Shown here: positions 13,054-34,350 of the stretch, piece after piece
How the letters are laid out: each line of letters begins with the position of its first letter
Numbering within the stretch: position 1 is the stretch's first letter
Assembly (NCBI GenBank): GCA_029247265.1
Contig: JAQWLN010000074.1
Location: forward strand, 1-43,203
Source: Fuerstiella sp.
Lineage (GTDB): Bacteria; Planctomycetota; Planctomycetia; Planctomycetales; Planctomycetaceae
DNA: 43,203 nt
Direction of reading: 5' to 3'
Program-made: the position numbers and the translations under genes
Notes under the pieces: model-generated
Databases searched by the model: none
Told to the model about the DNA's origin: nothing
The model's input: only the letters and a program-made list of their open reading frames with translations

Positions 13054-13445
13054 CGTTGGTGTGATGGAAACCCGGGCAGAGGAATGATTTGAGCTACGGG
13101 TGTGCACGGGTTGCCATCTGCCTCAGATTGACTTCAAGTTTACCCTGTTCCTTTTGATTCGGGATAGGTGCCGGAACGAACCTGTCGGCAGCGAGTCCCC
13201 CGGCGCGTCATTCTCGCAGTTCTTGAGCGGCGCAGCTTTCGGAGGGCGGTTTCTGTTCCTGTCGATTACCGGAACATGGCGCCACGTTTCTGCCAATAAT
13301 TGCGTTTCCCGGGCGAACAACAGTCAGATCGGCTGCAAACTGTCAGACGATGTTTCACCGGCCAGCCATCTAAACTACAAGACACATGTCCGGACTGGGT
13401 GGTCGGGATCACGTTTTGCCGGGTTGTTTGTGGTTGTCGTTCCTG
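13054..13445. other. intergenic region without a recognised feature
   Basis: About 390 bases. Short open frames cross it but none has family resemblance or a ribosome binding site. I see no clear promoter, hairpin or repeat. The next gene could start as early as 13386. Confidence 0.5.
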
Positions 13446-14774
13446 ATGAAACAACGTCACGTCATCTTCGGGGTTCTGTTCTGGACTGCAGCGGTCTGCT
13501 GGAGCTGGTACGTTCTGCGCACGGCACTGACCGCTCAGTCCAGTGACGTGTCACATCTTTCGTCCGACGTTACTCGATGGCTGAGTGGTCAGTATCGTCA
13601 TTTGCAGGCCACCTGCGATGACCGGCTGATGGTCGCTGTTGGTGATCCGGTATTTCTGCAGTCAGCGGAAGGGACGTGGTGGCAGGTTGGTCTGGCTACG
13701 AATATCAACGGAGAATTCAGTCGTGATCCGTTCATTACAACGACAACCGAAGTGTTGATTTACGAAGATGCAGTCGCCGCCTGTGCCGACAGTTTTCAGT
13801 TGCAGTACCACACGACACCCATGTCACTGGATTGGGTCGTGATGACGATGATACCTCCGGAACGGCAGAAGGCCATTGCCCTGCTGATTGCTGAAGAATG
13901 GAAGGTTCACCAGGAAGAGATCATGGACCGATTGCGCCCCGTCATGAAAGATGGGCTGCGTAAAGGGATGAAAGCCGTCGAGGCCGAGCTGCCGCAGATT
14001 CTCAGGGAACATCGAGATGGATTTCGGAAGTTAGGCGACCGTTACGAAACAGAAATACTGAAGGCTGAAGTCCTGCCACTTGTTCGCGATGAGATTCTGC
14101 CGATTGTCGAGTACGAAGCGCTGCCAGTTGCAGAAGACATTGGCCGAGCGCTGTGGAAGCGAGTGTCGCTGCTGTCCTTCGCGTATAGTTTTCTATACGA
14201 CAAATCTCCACTGCCGAGACGTGACGCGCTGAAGGCAGAATTTCAACGCTTTATTGACGAAGTGGCCCTGCCAGAGCTCCGGTCACGCAGCGATCAGTTT
14301 ATTCAGGTCACTGAAGATATCGTCAGACGCTCCATGGAAAACCCGAAGGTCAAAGATGCACTGAAACGAAATTTGCGACGTGTGGCAGAGGATCCTGAGC
14401 TGCACGAACTGATCAAGGCGATCGTCCGCGAGGCCATCGTCGACAACCAAACGCTTCGTCTGGAAATGGAAGCGTACCTGGATGATCAACAGACACAGGC
14501 AGCGCTCGACGTCGCGGGAGACCGGCTGGAACCAGTTGTTCGGCAGATCGGTGATCTGATCTTCGGTACGCGGGAAAAGGGAATTACTCCCGAGTTCTCT
14601 CGCATTCTCAGGTCGCAGATTCTGAAGAAGGATCGTCGCTGGTTTGTGATGGTGCCGGCGGATCGCGATGTTGTTCCGGGCCACCCGATTGAAATCGTCT
14701 ATGCGGATATGCCGATGACCTACCCGATGGGTTTCGGTGGTAATGGTCAGAGTCCTTTAACGCCGACTCGTTGA
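13446..14774 (+). CDS. membrane-anchored helical protein of unknown family, beside an MlaE-type transporter
   Basis: A 442-residue protein not recognised as a known family. It starts with one transmembrane helix (about residues 5-25), then a short beta-rich stretch (VAVGDPVFLQSAEGTWWQVG near 70), followed by about 300 residues of charged amphipathic helix with repeated patterns such as LPLVRDEILPIVEYEALPV, and a short beta-rich C-terminus (RRWFVMVPADRDVVPG). This plan of one anchor, a small beta domain and long helices recalls MlaD/MCE substrate-binding proteins, but the MCE domain is not convincing. Its stop is eleven bases before the ABC-MlaE gene, which uses AAGGA overlapping the end of this gene as ribosome binding site, so both belong to one operon. 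The start could instead be 13386, which adds 20 residues; neither has a good ribosome binding site. Confidence 0.75.
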   Translation: MKQRHVIFGVLFWTAAVCWSWYVLRTALTAQSSDVSHLSSDVTRWLSGQYRHLQATCDDRLMVAVGDPVFLQSAEGTWWQVGLATNINGEFSRDPFITTTTEVLIYEDAVAACADSFQLQYHTTPMSLDWVVMTMIPPERQKAIALLIAEEWKVHQEEIMDRLRPVMKDGLRKGMKAVEAELPQILREHRDGFRKLGDRYETEILKAEVLPLVRDEILPIVEYEALPVAEDIGRALWKRVSLLSFAYSFLYDKSPLPRRDALKAEFQRFIDEVALPELRSRSDQFIQVTEDIVRRSMENPKVKDALKRNLRRVAEDPELHELIKAIVREAIVDNQTLRLEMEAYLDDQQTQAALDVAGDRLEPVVRQIGDLIFGTREKGITPEFSRILRSQILKKDRRWFVMVPADRDVVPGHPIEIVYADMPMTYPMGFGGNGQSPLTPTR

Positions 14775-14785
14775 AGGATTGACAA

Positions 14786-16468
14786 ATGACGAAACCTCAG
14801 TCCGACAGTCCGCCTCCAAAGATATTGCCGACCGGTCGATCGACAGTGGCGCAGGATGTTAATGCGGAACAGTCTGCGGGGACCGAGATTGTTCTGCATG
14901 ATTTTTCTCTGTGTGCCGGTGGAAAGCCGCTGCTCAACAATACGTCTGTACAGTTCCCGGCCGGTGAACTCACACTGATTCTCGGCTGCAGCGGCGTCGG
15001 CAAGTCGTTGCTGCTGCGCATTCTTGCCGGACTCATTGATCGGGATCATGCGGCGATCAGGTATTCGGGCGAAATACGCTTTCAGGCGCACGGAGAAGCC
15101 GGGAAGTCCAGTGAGGTACGCGATCACCGGAATCAGCCGGTGGCCGTGGTGTTTCAGAGCTTTGCTCTGTTTGACGAACTTTCTCCAGCTGAAAATATCG
15201 AAATCGCCATTGAACATTCTTCTCAGGCGGTGGCATCAGTTTCATCGAATCAAAAGGCCAGAGACCTTCTGAAGGAGTTGGCGGTTCCGGGCGATCGTCC
15301 GACGTCCGTACTCAGTGGAGGACAACAACAGCGTCTGGCGATTGCCAGAGCACTGGGAATGGACACTGACGTTGTCTTGTATGACGAGCCGACATCCGGA
15401 CTCGATACCAACACGGCGGCTCAGGTGGCAGAGCTGATTCGCGACACGCAGACTCGTTTTGGGCGAACGTCCATCATCGTGACCCACGACTACGCTACGT
15501 TGCTGGATGTTGCGGATCACGTGGTTGTCTTAAATCATCACAATCGCAGTCTGCAGGCAGTGCCAGGCAAAGACTGGAGTCGTCTGTCAGAGATTCTGGG
15601 AGTGCCTCCCGAGGCAGATGATGCAGCCTCTGTAGATCAGCCGATGCTGCAGCGCCTCGCCGTTCCAGTACGGAATGCCTTCGCTGCGTCGGGCGAATTT
15701 CTGGAGCAGTTTCTTCTGCTTCCGATCGCTCTGCTGCCGCGCTGGCGCAGTTTCCGTTGGGGGGGGCGTCTGACCTGGCATTACCTGAATCTTGTCGCTG
15801 GCTGGTCAGCGTGTGTTTATATTGCGATTGCTGGCATGATCATTGGTTTTGTGGCACAGGATTTCATCTTTCGATATCTGCCGTTCCGGCAATATACCGA
15901 GCCATTGTTGATTGAAAATCTGCTGCACGCCACTGGATTTTCTCTGTACCGATTCCTGGTGCCGATTCTGTGTACGATTCTGATCGCGGCCCGTTCAGGT
16001 GCGGCAGTTGCGGCTGATGTCGGCAGCAAGGTGTATGGCAATCAGCTGGACGCGATGAAGACCATCGGCATGGACCCGCTGCGATCCGTGCGGACGCCGA
16101 TTCTGTACGCATTTCTGGTCGGCACGCCGTTGTTGACGTTTCTCAGCTACGGAGTTGCCAGCGTCACCAGCGCCGTTGCCTTTCTTTCGACTCATGCAAC
16201 TGAGGGCGTTGCCTTCTGGGACGCTCATTTCCATCGCGAACTGCGACTGCCGGCATCTGTCTTCTACAAGGGGACCGGTTGGCTGGTCACAAAGCTGCTG
16301 ACCTGTGCGGTTGGCATCGCCATGATTTCATGGAAGTGCGGCGCGGCTCCGAAACAGTCTGCGGCCGAAATCAGTCGGGGCGTCACCCGGACGATTCTGT
16401 GGTCGACGCTGTTCACATTGATGGTCCACTTCGTTTTTTCATTCTTCGAATTCAAAGCCCCTCAGTAG
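14786..16468 (+). CDS. fused ABC ATPase and MlaE-family permease
   Basis: A 560-residue protein combining two subunits that are normally separate. Residues about 30-255 are an ABC ATPase with Walker A (GCSGVGKS, near 69), a Q-loop (VVFQSFALFDELSP), the signature LSGGQQQRLAIARAL near 176, Walker B with DEPTSGLD near 195, and the H-loop VTHDY near 232. Residues about 315-560 are a membrane permease of the MlaE family, shown by several hydrophobic helices and the hallmark stretch AARSGAAVAADVGSKVYGNQ followed by LDAMKTIGMDPLRSVRTP. MlaFE complexes move phospholipids between inner membrane and periplasmic MCE proteins. A homodimer of this fusion would supply a complete transporter core. It is preceded by a membrane-anchored helical protein. 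Lipid as substrate is inferred from family membership. Confidence 0.93.
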   Translation: MTKPQSDSPPPKILPTGRSTVAQDVNAEQSAGTEIVLHDFSLCAGGKPLLNNTSVQFPAGELTLILGCSGVGKSLLLRILAGLIDRDHAAIRYSGEIRFQAHGEAGKSSEVRDHRNQPVAVVFQSFALFDELSPAENIEIAIEHSSQAVASVSSNQKARDLLKELAVPGDRPTSVLSGGQQQRLAIARALGMDTDVVLYDEPTSGLDTNTAAQVAELIRDTQTRFGRTSIIVTHDYATLLDVADHVVVLNHHNRSLQAVPGKDWSRLSEILGVPPEADDAASVDQPMLQRLAVPVRNAFAASGEFLEQFLLLPIALLPRWRSFRWGGRLTWHYLNLVAGWSACVYIAIAGMIIGFVAQDFIFRYLPFRQYTEPLLIENLLHATGFSLYRFLVPILCTILIAARSGAAVAADVGSKVYGNQLDAMKTIGMDPLRSVRTPILYAFLVGTPLLTFLSYGVASVTSAVAFLSTHATEGVAFWDAHFHRELRLPASVFYKGTGWLVTKLLTCAVGIAMISWKCGAAPKQSAAEISRGVTRTILWSTLFTLMVHFVFSFFEFKAPQ

Positions 16469-16648
16469 GGCCTCTTCGACGCATGATGAGCCGCGCGGGA
16501 TTTTTGTCTGGGCTCGTGAGCGTCAACCGCAGTGTCCCTTCGTCATTCGTCCCTGGCGGTGTTCTGCAGTTCACATTCTTCGGTTGCCCGAATCAGGCTG
16601 CTGTCGGTAAACTGCAATGGTCGTGCTGGTGCGCGTTGCAGTTCGGCG

Positions 16649-16677
16649 TTTTCAAAAGCATCGGAAAAAAGTATACA
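16649..16677 (+). promoter_or_regulatory. putative sigma70-type promoter for the FlgG-like gene
   Basis: TTTTCA (16649-16654) and TATACA (16672-16677) are separated by exactly 17 bases, with four-of-six matches to each consensus box. The predicted start of transcription would be near 16684, about 86 bases before the GTG start codon. Confidence 0.4.
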
Positions 16678-16682
16678 CGTAG

Positions 16683-16692
16683 CGTCATGACG
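16683..16692. promoter_or_regulatory. 10-bp palindrome at the predicted transcription start
   Basis: CGTCATGACG is perfectly self-complementary and sits at the expected +1 of the promoter at 16649-16677, where a bound repressor would block initiation. The operator role is an inference from position only. Confidence 0.3.
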
Positions 16693-16769
16693 GCGCACAG
16701 CAGTAAACACCGGACCTCGGCTCGTATCGACAGGCGAAGACGGTGACGAAACCGGCAGGAGGCCAGCAG

Positions 16770-17942
16770 GTGAAACCGTTTTTTTCGATTTTGATGTTTG
16801 TCGGTGTCTTTGGCTTCGGAGTACTTGCCGGTCGCTGGATGGTGTTACCGGGAAGTTCTTCTGCCGTGGGCGAGCTGCACTCCGATACGGATGCGGTTGC
16901 TCAGATCTCTGCCCTGTCGTCAGATAACCGCGACAGCGGTTTCGCCGTGAATCGCTTCACTGCTATGGAAACGGGACTTGCTGCCGACGCCGGGAATGAA
17001 GTCGTGCCGGTGTCATTCGAAGAGTTTGCGGCGAACAGCCCGACAGCAGCGTCTAAGGAGCTTCCGAGTGTACGGCCATCCCGAAAGGTGTCTCGTGAAC
17101 AGGTTCGGGCTGTCATCACGAACCGTTTTCCAGACCTGCCTGCCGAGGCCGTGTCTGGTTGGACGGACACGTATGAAGGTACTCCTCCGGATGAACTGGA
17201 ACTGCTGCTGGAACAACGGAAAGGGCTGCCACCCATGCTTCCTGGAGGATCATTTTTGTCGCAGGCAACTTCTGAATTCGGCAAGCTGCAGCCGACCCCA
17301 GGCGACACTCAAGGGCCATTCGCGAGCGCTGCGACGATTGTTCATAAGAATCTCCTGCATGTCGCGACTCCAGGGTTTCGCCGGCGACGCATCGTTACGC
17401 GACTTAAAAACTTCTCAAGTGCGGCTGACTCCGGGCACGGTCTTCAGCAACGCCGGATCTTCGATTTTCAGCCGGGGGCAATAAATCCGTCTCAGCACCC
17501 ACTTCATTTGGCTATCGTCGACCATCCGGAACTGATGTTTCAACTGGAGCCGGGAAATCTGCTGACGCGCAGTGGAACATTCATTCGTCTGGCAGACGGT
17601 CGGCTCGGCATAGAGACAGATGGCGGAACAGCCGCGATTTTTTCCCGAATTACCATTCCTGAAGACGCAGGCACCATTTCTGTCTCGATGAATGGTGTCG
17701 TTCGATTCAACGATTCAACAGGGAAAGTTCAGTCGGTTGGAAACCTGAAGCTGGCCATTGTCAGTGGATTGGATGATCTTCAAAGTGTGAACGGCGTGTT
17801 CTTCACAACGTCGACCGATCCGTCGTGGATCCCCACAGCGGAGGGCACTCCGGTCGTGACCAATGCACTGGAATCTTCCAACGTCGACATTGACTACGAA
17901 TGGAAACTGGCCGACCATTATTCTCGGTTGAACAGTTTGTAG
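16770..17942 (+). CDS. membrane-anchored protein with a C-terminal FlgG-like flagellar rod domain
   Basis: A 390-residue protein. The GTG start at 16770 is preceded by AGGAGG (16757-16762) at a spacing of seven, one of the best ribosome binding sites in the window; an upstream in-frame GTG at 16743 lacks this. Residues about 5-27 form a single membrane anchor or uncleaved signal (FFSILMFVGVFGFGVLAGRW). Residues about 28-165 are a low-complexity linker containing a short helical segment. From about 166 the sequence follows FlgG/FlgF rod proteins: NLLHVATPGFRRRR matches the conserved ANNLANVxTxGFK region, then FQPGAINPSQHPLHLAI, LTRSGTFIRLADGRLGIETD, ITIPEDAGTISVSMNGVVRF, and finally LESSNVDIDYEWKL, like the LExSNV element of rod proteins. 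No flagellar gene is nearby, so this is an orphan rod-like protein. Confidence 0.85.
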   Translation: MKPFFSILMFVGVFGFGVLAGRWMVLPGSSSAVGELHSDTDAVAQISALSSDNRDSGFAVNRFTAMETGLAADAGNEVVPVSFEEFAANSPTAASKELPSVRPSRKVSREQVRAVITNRFPDLPAEAVSGWTDTYEGTPPDELELLLEQRKGLPPMLPGGSFLSQATSEFGKLQPTPGDTQGPFASAATIVHKNLLHVATPGFRRRRIVTRLKNFSSAADSGHGLQQRRIFDFQPGAINPSQHPLHLAIVDHPELMFQLEPGNLLTRSGTFIRLADGRLGIETDGGTAAIFSRITIPEDAGTISVSMNGVVRFNDSTGKVQSVGNLKLAIVSGLDDLQSVNGVFFTTSTDPSWIPTAEGTPVVTNALESSNVDIDYEWKLADHYSRLNSL

Positions 17943-31272: not shown

Positions 31273-32274
31273 GTGAATTCGTTGACTGCAATTTCCACTG
31301 CGGCGAGGTGGACGCCGATTCAGTGTCGTCGTTTCTGTCGTACCGAATTCCGTTGTTTCTGGTGCGCAATACTTCTTGTAGTCTGGTCGTCCGCGCAGCT
31401 GCCTGCAGGGGCCAACGAGAATATCGGACCCCGAAGAGGAACACTTGTTATTGATGGCGGCGGTGCCGGCAACGGCTTCAGGCATTTCCTGACACTGGCA
31501 GGTGGCCCGGATGCAAAAGTTGTGATCGTGTCGACGGCCTCGTCCAGTTCAGAGGAGTACGACTATTTCGCGCACCGCTCAGCAAAGTTTGCTCGTGAAA
31601 AATGTGAAATGTCGAATGTTACGGTCGTTCATACCCACGACCGAAGCGAGGCCGACACCGAAGCATTCGTTCAGCCGATTCGTGACGCAGACGCGGTCTG
31701 GTTCACAGGAGGTCGGCAGTGGCGGATTGCGGATGCGTACCTTGGAACGCGGACAGAAACGGAATTTCGTAATGTTCTGGAACGTGGCGGTGTCATCGGT
31801 GGCAGTTCGGCAGGCGCGTCGATTCAGGGGTCGTTTCTGGTTCGAGGTGATACCAGTGGCAGCGACGTGATGATTGGTGACCACCAGCGCGGGTTGGGAT
31901 ACATTAAGAATTCAGCCATCGATCAGCATGTGATTCCTCGGAAACGCCAGCAGGGGCTGATCGAAGTTCTCATGGATCCTGAGGGGAAGATGCAGCCCTC
32001 CATCGACCGCAGGAAATTATTGGGCATCGGTATCGACGAAGGGACGGCGATCGTTGTGGTCGGCAATGAGTTTAACGTCATCGGGAAAAAAGACGGCGTG
32101 GTGTTGCTCTACGACCCGAAGACGTGGACTTCAGACTCCACTGACAGCGAAAGGTACATACCACTGTGGGTGGGGGCGAAGTACGACTTGCAGAATCGAG
32201 AGATCCTGAGTCGCGGTACACCGCCGGTGTCGGAGGAAGTTGACGCACAGGGCTCCTGTGGCGAGACATTCTGA
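31273..32274 (+). CDS. secreted peptidase S51 / cyanophycinase-like protein
   Basis: A 333-residue protein with an N-terminal hydrophobic signal (FWCAILLVVWSSAQLPAGA) after a long basic n-region. The body follows the peptidase S51 family (cyanophycinase, dipeptidase E): GTLVIDGGGAGNGFRHFLTL, then ADAVWFTGGRQWRIADAY, and the nucleophile-elbow motif GGVIGGSSAGASIQG with the catalytic serine. Cyanophycinase releases Asp-Arg dipeptides from cyanophycin; exported relatives exist and their substrates are largely unknown. The GTG start at 31273 has AAGGA (31261-31265) at seven bases; an in-frame GTG at 31255 is the alternative. The 3' end overlaps the opposing glycosyltransferase frame by 166 bases. 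Confidence 0.88.
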   Translation: MNSLTAISTAARWTPIQCRRFCRTEFRCFWCAILLVVWSSAQLPAGANENIGPRRGTLVIDGGGAGNGFRHFLTLAGGPDAKVVIVSTASSSSEEYDYFAHRSAKFAREKCEMSNVTVVHTHDRSEADTEAFVQPIRDADAVWFTGGRQWRIADAYLGTRTETEFRNVLERGGVIGGSSAGASIQGSFLVRGDTSGSDVMIGDHQRGLGYIKNSAIDQHVIPRKRQQGLIEVLMDPEGKMQPSIDRRKLLGIGIDEGTAIVVVGNEFNVIGKKDGVVLLYDPKTWTSDSTDSERYIPLWVGAKYDLQNREILSRGTPPVSEEVDAQGSCGETF

Positions 32275-33902
32275 TGATGCCTGATGTGTTCACCAGCGTT
32301 TTGGTGGCAGGCAGGATTTCTGCTCAGAATGCAGCCCGGACTCCGTCGATGCCTACAGAGTGTTGTGGACTTCGTCCGAGCATCTGTGGCCAACACTCTG
32401 TATGTGCCGGCTTCGAATACGACGGGAAGATTCCATGGGAATTCGTCCGCAGAGTATTCACTCGTGAGTTCAGATTCGACAGATTCTGTAACAACTAATC
32501 GTGACGTGTTTTGGCGCACGGATTGATTAATGCTTGTGGCGCGACGTTTGAAGAGATCCTGCAGAATCAAAGTACACCAGTATCGTGTCGCCGGTTGTAC
32601 TCTGAGTTCTCGGAAAACGTGTACGCTGTGAACGTTCAGACACGTTAGCTCACCGTCTTTCACGGGTTCTTCACGCAGGAAATCGACGACGCGAATTAGA
32701 TTTTGCCACGCCGGAAATGTGCCGTGAGCCAGTGTGGCACGAATCTGCGTGGAGCTTCCCTCGGACCAGCAACGCGGCCACAGAGCCAGACGCTGCAGAT
32801 TCAGGATCGGTGCAGCAAGCAACGCCAGACAGACAAAACAGGATGTGGCAACTCTGCGAGGTGCCACATTAAATTGCCACGGCCACGCGCTGATTAACAG
32901 CAGACCGAGAACGATTGTCGGTGCGTGGATATAGTCCATCGCGTGCTGCAGGATAACGGCCTGCAGCAACCATCCGACGTAGATGGCGGCCACGAGGCTC
33001 AGACTGCGGTTATCCGCATTCCCGTCTCGCACCGTAACGGCATTGAGGGCGACTCGAAAGGCCAGTGGTATGGCGACAGCATGCACGACCCACCACGGAT
33101 GAAAGCGGTAGGCCATCATCTGCCAGCGGTCCAGGTTCCCTCGTTCACGTCCTGCTGCAAGATACTCAGGATTCCATTCCAACATCATTTCCCAGAAATG
33201 CGGCCATGCGCCGTTGTCGATCAGCCACCAGATGCCGGGTAGCGCTGCGAGTATTCCGCCGGCAACCACGGCTGCGGTTTCCGTGACGATGTGACGTTGT
33301 TGTTTTCGGGGCAGGACATCGATGGCAATGACAAATATCGCGGGCACCGCGATATGGGGCTTAATCCAGAATGCGCAGCCCCACAGTGTTCCTTCCAGGA
33401 TGGCCAGCTTCAGGTCGCGCGGCTTTACCGCCCCGCCCTGCAGCCTGAGCAGCACAGCGGCCAGGGCTGGCAACAGCATCCATGTATCTCGCTGGCAATG
33501 GCACCATTCGTTGCAACAAAGATAGAACGCCGACGCTGTGAATGCGAACGCGCCCCCGGCCTGCGGAGTGCGAAGCATACGCATCCCCAGGAATACGATC
33601 CCTGCGAAAATCAGCAGATCGACAGTACGGATGGCTTCAGATGACCAGCCAACCAGAGGGCGAACGGCGAGATGAATCCAGACAACTCCGGGCAGATTGG
33701 GTTCCACGATGTCACGATAAAGAACTCCGCCCTCCAGAACGCATTCGGCCTGGAGATCAAATAGCGCTGTGTCCGAATTCAGCGGCATACACACGAACAG
33801 GGGGCCCAGCACGAGCAGCAACAGCGCGCAGCCTCCACCCAACATTCGCCCCGATGCGATCGTTGATGCACTGCTGCGGTTTGGGCATGTGGCTGCTGGC
33901 AC
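32109..33902 (-). CDS. GT-C type membrane glycosyltransferase (GT39/ArnT-like) with an unusual C-terminal tail
   Basis: A 597-residue protein with roughly nine to eleven hydrophobic helices. After the first helix it has NSDTALFDLQAECVLEGGVL, where GT-C enzymes carry their acidic catalytic loop, and then VEPNLPGVVWIHLAVRPLVG. Such enzymes move sugars from polyprenyl phosphate carriers to lipids or proteins in the periplasm. The GTG start at 33902 is chosen because AGGAG lies five bases upstream (33908-33912); the frame is open a further 38 codons, and ATG 33845 is also possible. The natural end appears to be near VFEAGTYRVLATDA; the last 89 or so residues are Arg/Ser/His-rich and run into the 3' end of the S51 gene on the other strand. 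A lost stop codon or a frameshift near 32380 would explain this. Confidence 0.78.
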   Translation of the reverse strand: MPAATCPNRSSASTIASGRMLGGGCALLLLVLGPLFVCMPLNSDTALFDLQAECVLEGGVLYRDIVEPNLPGVVWIHLAVRPLVGWSSEAIRTVDLLIFAGIVFLGMRMLRTPQAGGAFAFTASAFYLCCNEWCHCQRDTWMLLPALAAVLLRLQGGAVKPRDLKLAILEGTLWGCAFWIKPHIAVPAIFVIAIDVLPRKQQRHIVTETAAVVAGGILAALPGIWWLIDNGAWPHFWEMMLEWNPEYLAAGRERGNLDRWQMMAYRFHPWWVVHAVAIPLAFRVALNAVTVRDGNADNRSLSLVAAIYVGWLLQAVILQHAMDYIHAPTIVLGLLLISAWPWQFNVAPRRVATSCFVCLALLAAPILNLQRLALWPRCWSEGSSTQIRATLAHGTFPAWQNLIRVVDFLREEPVKDGELTCLNVHSVHVFRELRVQPATRYWCTLILQDLFKRRATSINQSVRQNTSRLVVTESVESELTSEYSADEFPWNLPVVFEAGTYRVLATDARTKSTTLCRHRRSPGCILSRNPACHQNAGEHIRHHQNVSPQEPCASTSSDTGGVPRLRISRFCKSYFAPTHSGMYLSLSVESEVHVFGS

Positions 33903-34350
33903 GTAGTCTCCTGATTTGCGAAGCGTGACGAATTGCTGTTTGTGCACACCACGTATTCGGACGCGAATTTTGTGTGATGTAGACGGCAGGTCGTGTTCAA
34001 TAGAAAACTGTCTCACTGTATTGAGTTCGCCAATTTGAAACCGACAGCGTGTTACGTCTTTGGCGACGCTCTTATTGAAGGCCGCGACTGTTTACACAAC
34101 GACGATCATGCCGGTTGTAGTGATTGAAACGTGTCGTTGGTCAGTTCGTGTGGATGCAGATGTTGCCAAAAATCAACATGATGAGCACGACCGTCATACT
34201 TTCCGGAACATCCGCACAATACGTTGCCGTTCCAGACGTCAGTCCGGAGCGAACTCACACAGATGATAGCTTCGTCCATGAGACCGGTGCTCTGCCCACC
34301 AGTGATACAGATTCCCCAGGACTCTTTTCTGCCTCGGAAATCACGGACAT
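33903..34350. other. divergent intergenic region, glycosyltransferase to methyltransferase
   Basis: About 450 bases between two divergent genes. Short frames on both strands cross it, but they have no recognisable similarity and no ribosome binding site. No clear promoter pair, hairpin or repeat was found, although it must contain promoters in both directions. Confidence 0.45.

Follow-up and report, generated by a model that had tools for sequence, protein, structure and literature searches.

A candidate two-gene envelope system of Planctomycetota: a predicted MCE protein with a split domain and a one-piece ATPase-MlaE permease

Genes of the locus and linkage of the first two

We analysed a window of 43,203 nucleotides from the planctomycete Fuerstiella sp. 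(contig JAQWLN010000074.1, positions 1 to 43,203). Three consecutive genes on its plus strand (Table 1) encode an anchored helical protein (gene 1), a fusion of ABC ATPase and MlaE permease (gene 2) and a protein resembling flagellar rod proteins (gene 3). Homologues of all three keep the reading frame, so these are real genes and not chance open reading frames (ORFs). We find that genes 1 and 2 form a conserved pair, and structural models suggest that gene 1 encodes an MCE domain split by a long helical insert.

Gene 1 is read from the ATG at 13446; its longest frame begins upstream, at 13386. Genes 1 and 2 are 11 bp apart, and a gap of 274 bp separates gene 2 from gene 3. The host genome (G000; 6.5 Mb, 90.5% complete) carries the locus on its contig C168, and among protein relatives with a named source the nearest come from metagenome-assembled genomes of Fuerstiella (Planctomycetota). 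Both domains of gene 2 score above their Pfam cut-offs: ABC_tran at residues 50-204 (E 7e-26) and MlaE at residues 339-553 (E 8e-24; 84.8 bits, cut-off 22.5). The permease profile also matches solved MlaE chains (best E 2e-19), and the ATPase motif stretches, which we take to be the Walker A, signature, Walker B and H-loop motifs, are conserved in an alignment of 11 sequences (A7). The fusion is one polypeptide in the window and in every relative seen whole. Gene 1 has nothing above cut-off in Pfam or NCBIfam. The original prediction, made from the letters of the window, had described the three genes, the one-polypeptide transporter, and for gene 1 a single anchor, a small beta region and long helices; the ORFs and domain matches agree with it, and the model of gene 1 bears out the last part.

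Table 1. Positions of the three genes and of their domains in the window
Feature	Positions	Strand	Basis
Gene 1, predicted split-MCE protein, 442 residues	13446..14774	+	ORF from ATG at 13446; homologues; two models
Gene 1, predicted N-terminal membrane anchor, about residues 6-27	13461..13526	+	Model helix 2-31; hydrophobic sequence
Gene 1, predicted MCE N-half, residues 48-126, strands beta1-beta5	13587..13823	+	Models; profile comparison; match of L098/L099 to PF02470 positions 3-65
Gene 1, predicted helical arm, residues 127-397, insert at the position of the beta5-beta6 pore-lining loop	13824..14636	+	Models; alignment; loop as defined in part of PMC8420772
Gene 1, arm tip, conserved and aromatic-rich, residues 237-256, family consensus ELWxxxPxWxLxWR	14154..14213	+	Alignment
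Gene 1, predicted MCE C-half, residues 398-424, strands beta6-beta7	14637..14717	+	Models; couplings to N-half; unrecognised alone by profile
Gene 2, one-piece ATPase and MlaE permease, 560 residues	14786..16468	+	ORF; Pfam
Gene 2, ABC_tran ATPase domain	14933..15397	+	Pfam; conserved motif stretches
Gene 2, MlaE permease domain	15800..16444	+	Pfam; profile match to solved MlaE chains
Gene 3, anchored FlgF/G-like protein, 399 residues, residues 198-383 FlgF-like; neighbour outside the conserved system	16743..17942	+	Pfam; NCBIfam; synteny

The fusion is found in 15 of 39 near genomes (in G023 in two pieces), and gene 1 lies directly upstream of it in 14 of the 15, counting G023, where gene 1 is fragmentary and lies at a contig end. 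The remaining genome, G017, has gene 1 on a different contig. In a sample of 294 Planctomycetota genomes, at least 37 have gene 1, at least 44 have a fusion-type permease and at least 34 have both (Fisher p 4e-32, not corrected for kinship). These counts are lower bounds because the search scored at most five candidates per genome for gene 1 and at most nine for the permease, whose criterion (E 1e-40) is by itself no proof of fusion. Thirty of the 40 gene 1 matches in this sample were examined as loci extending 1.5 kb past gene 1, the region beyond the fusion being outside view. Three are cut by contig ends; the fusion comes directly after gene 1 in 25 of the 27 others, and in the two exceptions (G307 and G070) it is on another contig. 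Three genomes have gene 1 only: G175, where an ATPase half runs into the contig end, G200, where gene 1 is itself at a contig end, and G123, with a weak match. Among the ten with the fusion only, eight have a diverged gene 1 just upstream of it; the remaining two, G160 and G170, have a fusion truncated at a contig end, and gene 1 was not found elsewhere in either genome. A related-locus search with a narrower gene 1 alignment gave five loci. Altogether, 54 locus records have gene 1 and then the fusion; three of them (L002, L003 and L093) are the window and six more pairs are duplicates, which leaves 46. Given this linkage and co-occurrence, we take genes 1 and 2 as the conserved unit. The helical protein belongs with the ABC-MlaE fusion in an envelope system of two genes, and to that extent the undescribed envelope system proposed for this locus is supported across the phylum.

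Gene 1 as a predicted MCE domain with a helical insert

According to two structural models, gene 1 would be an MCE domain in which barrel strands 1-5 are followed by about 270 helical residues and then by strands 6-7. We built one model for the window protein and one for a relative 20% identical to it. MCE structures lead the match lists of both, clearly for the second, which fits MlaD at 1.7 Å over 90 residues and has the Mce1 transporter as its best Foldseek match. Both models predict the seven-stranded beta-barrel of MCE domains, and a single N-terminal anchor is predicted ahead of it (model helix 2-31, with a hydrophobic N-terminus across the alignment). The original prediction had seen no convincing MCE domain here; on these models the helical protein itself is the candidate. 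The sections of PMC8420772 on known MCE domains give 5-27 residues for the pore-lining loop between beta5 and beta6, and in gene 1 this stretch has about 271. The range describes known members and does not define the family; the long insert is a new trait.

Profile work used 29 members (A3) hand-picked from the fetched loci, with the window standing for L093 and the phylum-sample loci L100, L111, L115, L118, L121 and L122 excluded. Two distant members (L098 and L099) match PF02470 (MlaD) below cut-off, over positions 3-65 of 81, which is the half before the insert. When the insert is spliced out of ten chosen sequences, one passes the Pfam cut-off, three match below it and six, including the window, are unmatched. 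Since no unspliced member reaches the PF02470 cut-off (0/29), we file gene 1 as a divergent relative by predicted fold and not as a member of PF02470. The spliced family profile aligns at 90.6%, over 99 columns, with a profile of planctomycete MlaD proteins, and column shuffles equal this match in 0 of 200 trials (2 of 200 for a gappier version of the profile). The N-half alone reaches a probability of 62% against the MlaD profile (hhalign). Covariation gives a test independent of MCE templates. It used 158 sequences (effective number 102), after removal of the rod proteins P0121-P0132 and of any gene 1 homologue no longer than 330 residues. Of the top 200 pairs, 23 join the N-half to the C-half across the insert, when 7.3 are expected, and eight pairs join beta1 to beta7, when 0.5 are expected. 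These couplings support a barrel shared by the two halves.

Several results weigh against the MCE assignment. The MCE matches of the window model are modest, and PF02470 does not match the window protein, whether whole or with the insert removed. The profile of the whole of gene 1 finds nothing among planctomycete MlaD and PqiB-like proteins, which the interruption of the domain by the insert would explain, and a sequence search of the PDB with the gene 1 profile gives six weak matches (best E 0.11), none of them MCE. A control with swapped halves still aligns at 71.5%. When random pieces of the insert stand in for the C-half, the mean score is 34.5 and the maximum 41.6, against 42.5 for the real one, and the C-half alone fails direct profile recognition. 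From the two controls it follows that most of the profile signal comes from the N-half; sequence support for MCE identity rests on that half. The couplings carry limited weight, because pairs within the N-half are not in excess in this analysis (5 pairs, 6.8 expected).

The insert, measured between alignment columns, has 268-275 residues in 28 of the 29 members, namely the window protein and 27 relatives at 17-53% identity to it, and 292 in L016, the most distant at 15% identity. It has exactly 271 residues in 84 of 85 closer homologues. Conservation is highest at the two junctions of arm and barrel, outgoing and returning (WVxxTLLP and ARVLRxxxLxKD), and in a mid-arm segment with 16.5% aromatic residues, compared to 5.6-5.8% in the shafts. 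The outgoing and returning stretches are nearly equal in length, and both models predict the order out, tip and back. Antiparallel packing of the two is moderately supported. The best antiparallel coupling axis (i + j = 512) puts the turn at residue 256; it fails one of two permutation controls, a circular shift that is harsh because it moves any ridge along, and parallel bands of few cells have mean couplings of 0.17-0.21 against 0.17 for the axis. Four of five arm segments exceed the shuffled 95% level for helical hydrophobic periodicity. By arithmetic, a straight helix of about 125 residues at 1.5 Å per residue would span up to about 190 Å. For scale, Mce1 extends about 225 Å into a periplasm of about 200 Å, as given in part of PMC9882608.

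We also observe two diverged clades (L137-L140, L143, L144 and L146; L141 and L142) that keep the pair and in which, by eye, the insert length departs from about 271. Most proteins of the first stop soon after beta6, and those of the second have an MCE-like tail at their end. Weak matches to DUF445 (PF04286) occur in six of the 29 members, all below cut-off, the best in the helical part of L016 (G028; E 0.0015, 19.0 bits, cut-off 33.8). DUF445 is a possible origin of the insert; with matches this weak we set it aside as a relative of the arm.

Proposed transport mechanism and its alternatives

We consider it likely that the pair is an MCE-type lipid transporter, built from a one-piece ATPase-permease and a split MCE protein whose arms prolong the pore toward the outer membrane. 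In MlaFEDB, as described in part of PMC7790496, MlaE is encircled by six MlaD anchors, and the pocket of the permease is extended by the MCE pore. By analogy, six copies of gene 1 would ring a dimer of the fusion, with their anchors around the permease. From the pore, the arm would extend as a single stretch of helix (residues ~128-250) to a turn at the aromatic tip (~256) and then run back antiparallel, so that strands 6-7 complete the barrel. Six such hairpins could extend the MCE pore as a helical tube or picket toward the outer membrane, and the needle would then derive from a pore loop, unlike the C-terminal needle of Mce1. ATP hydrolysis by the fused ATPase would power lipid transfer between inner membrane and conduit, with no MlaC shuttle. 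More tentatively, and at somewhat under an even chance, the pair is a complete trans-envelope lipid machine, in which the pore loop of an MCE domain has grown into a hairpin of fixed length, six hairpins form a tube to the outer membrane and the aromatic tip docks there, so that two genes would do the job of the six Mla genes.

The other transport genes of these genomes bear on this proposal. MlaC is matched in two of the 42 genomes with gene 1, once above cut-off, and not in that of the window; MlaA has no match in the window's own genome, the one genome searched for it (90.5% complete). Both results fit a carrier-free route. G000 also has a conventional mlaE-mlaF-mlaD operon, on contig C270, and on contig C100 a gene resembling PqiB that has two MCE matches (L001, L035 and L053 cover these contigs). 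An ordinary MCE match above cut-off is present in 39 of the 42 genomes. With ordinary MCE systems alongside it, the pair likely serves its own lipid or task. In G028 and G224 (88% complete), which have the pair, the Pfam MCE model finds nothing at E 0.001, so they may possess no MCE system besides the split one.

The arms of a split-MCE transporter need not form a conduit. They could act as a plug or lid, as a tether to peptidoglycan or the outer membrane, or as a docking post for a soluble carrier, with lipid leaving through the pore alone. Monomer models (pTM, the predicted template-modelling score, 0.45-0.46) cannot show a tube, the hydrophobic periodicity of the arm is expected of any helical bundle, and Acinetobacter baumannii MlaD has a 47-residue helical insert at another loop whose function is called unclear in part of PMC7677376. 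We think this unlikely, since the insert replaces the pore-lining loop itself and therefore would have to leave from the pore, its near-constant length and conserved tip suggest a fixed span, and MlaC is nearly absent from genomes with gene 1. It is more improbable still that the beta domain of gene 1 is another small barrel and the protein a generic helical adaptor in the periplasm, serving an MlaE transporter that uses some other carrier. For this speak the missing Pfam match, the negative whole-protein profile comparison, the C-half that sequence does not recognise and the modest matches of the window model; the second model and the couplings between the halves point to the split MCE domain.

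The original prediction had instead given the conduit to gene 3, as a FlgG-like rod polymer serving the lipid transporter. Gene 3 has the similarity to FlgE/F/G-type proteins that was claimed, below the Pfam cut-off (D1 domain, 22.4 bits, cut-off 27), and its best NCBIfam model is FlgF (70.1 bits, cut-off 178.5), not FlgG. Adjacent and co-directional genes would suit a third component, and gene 3 is both in G000, G001 and G002. These three closest species are the only ones of eight genomes of the genus, and of 15 near loci (seen to about 1.5 kb past the fusion, less at contig ends), in which it adjoins the fusion. Relatives of gene 3 are elsewhere in G003, G004, G005, G007 and G012, where the surrounding 10-14 kb holds only low-identity common-family matches to the genes of the window (for instance an ordinary ABC-ATPase-like frame in G007), and the fusion genomes G006, G016, G017 and G031 have no match at E 0.001. 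The gap to gene 2 is 274 bp, and gene 3 is 61% identical in G002, against 86-90% for its two flanking genes. A sigma-70 scan, which covers one promoter type only, found no promoter upstream of gene 3, where one had been expected. On synteny we reject gene 3 as a third system component, a finding of the sort that the original prediction had itself listed as refuting the membership of this gene, and we give the rod conduit almost no credence. The lower identity in G002 indicates faster evolution of gene 3. Because of this divergence, the unlinked relatives in genus and family, and the lack of a Flg_bbr_C match in G007 (96% complete), gene 3 may derive from a rod protein that took on a different role. 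Elsewhere in the window, a 635-residue ORF on the minus strand (32109-34016) has no Pfam match at E 0.001.

Comparison with known systems

How lipids cross between two membranes is an open question to which MCE proteins are one main answer. If our proposal is right, the pore loop is an evolvable site for needle growth, and the two-gene system is a compact object for cryo-electron microscopy and reconstitution. Planctomycete envelope biology is debated, and planctomycetes would gain a testable trans-envelope candidate. A literature search (titles and abstracts of open-licence PMC texts) found no description of a fused MlaF-MlaE, of an MCE pore-loop insert or of planctomycete MCE systems. We class the pair with the MCE transporters on its predicted fold and the partner gene; its domain build and gene economy are new. 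Two surveys of MCE architecture relied on the Pfam MCE model (parts of PMC5561183 and PMC10665443); with all 29 members below its cut-off, they have probably missed this phylum-wide family.

MlaFEDB of Escherichia coli and A. baumannii shares with the pair an MlaE permease, an ABC ATPase and an anchored MCE protein, MlaD, which the second model fits. It differs in that MlaF and MlaE are separate subunits, fused here, and in the predicted pore-loop insert of about 270 residues; the Mla system also differs by the MlaC and MlaA noted above. In A. baumannii MlaD, which likewise has a helical insert within its MCE domain, the 47 residues lie between strands 4 and 5 (PMC7677376, in part). The long MlaD of Veillonella parvula resembles gene 1 in that one gene, accompanied by MlaE and MlaF, has been proposed to span the envelope. 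In that protein the MCE domain comes first, with a helical extension and a beta-barrel after it; the survey in the same source detected MlaD with PF02470, whose cut-off all 29 gene 1 members miss when left unspliced, and reports PVC bacteria without the barrel (PMC10665443, in part). LetB and PqiB of E. coli have in common with the pair the MCE fold, predicted here, and the notion of a tunnel through the periplasm. Most of their domains already have long pore-lining loops, of 16-27 residues (PMC8420772, in part); PqiB has three MCE domains and LetB seven, whereas gene 1 has a predicted one with a loop about ten times longer. Mycobacterial Mce1 (YrbE1AB-MceG-Mce1A-F) comes close in outline, with an MCE ring and a long helical needle on a YrbE/MlaE permease, if the pair does form a ring. 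In Mce1 the needle and portal follow the MCE domain and are built from six different subunits (PMC9882608, in part), whereas here the helices lie between predicted strands 5 and 6 and come from one gene.
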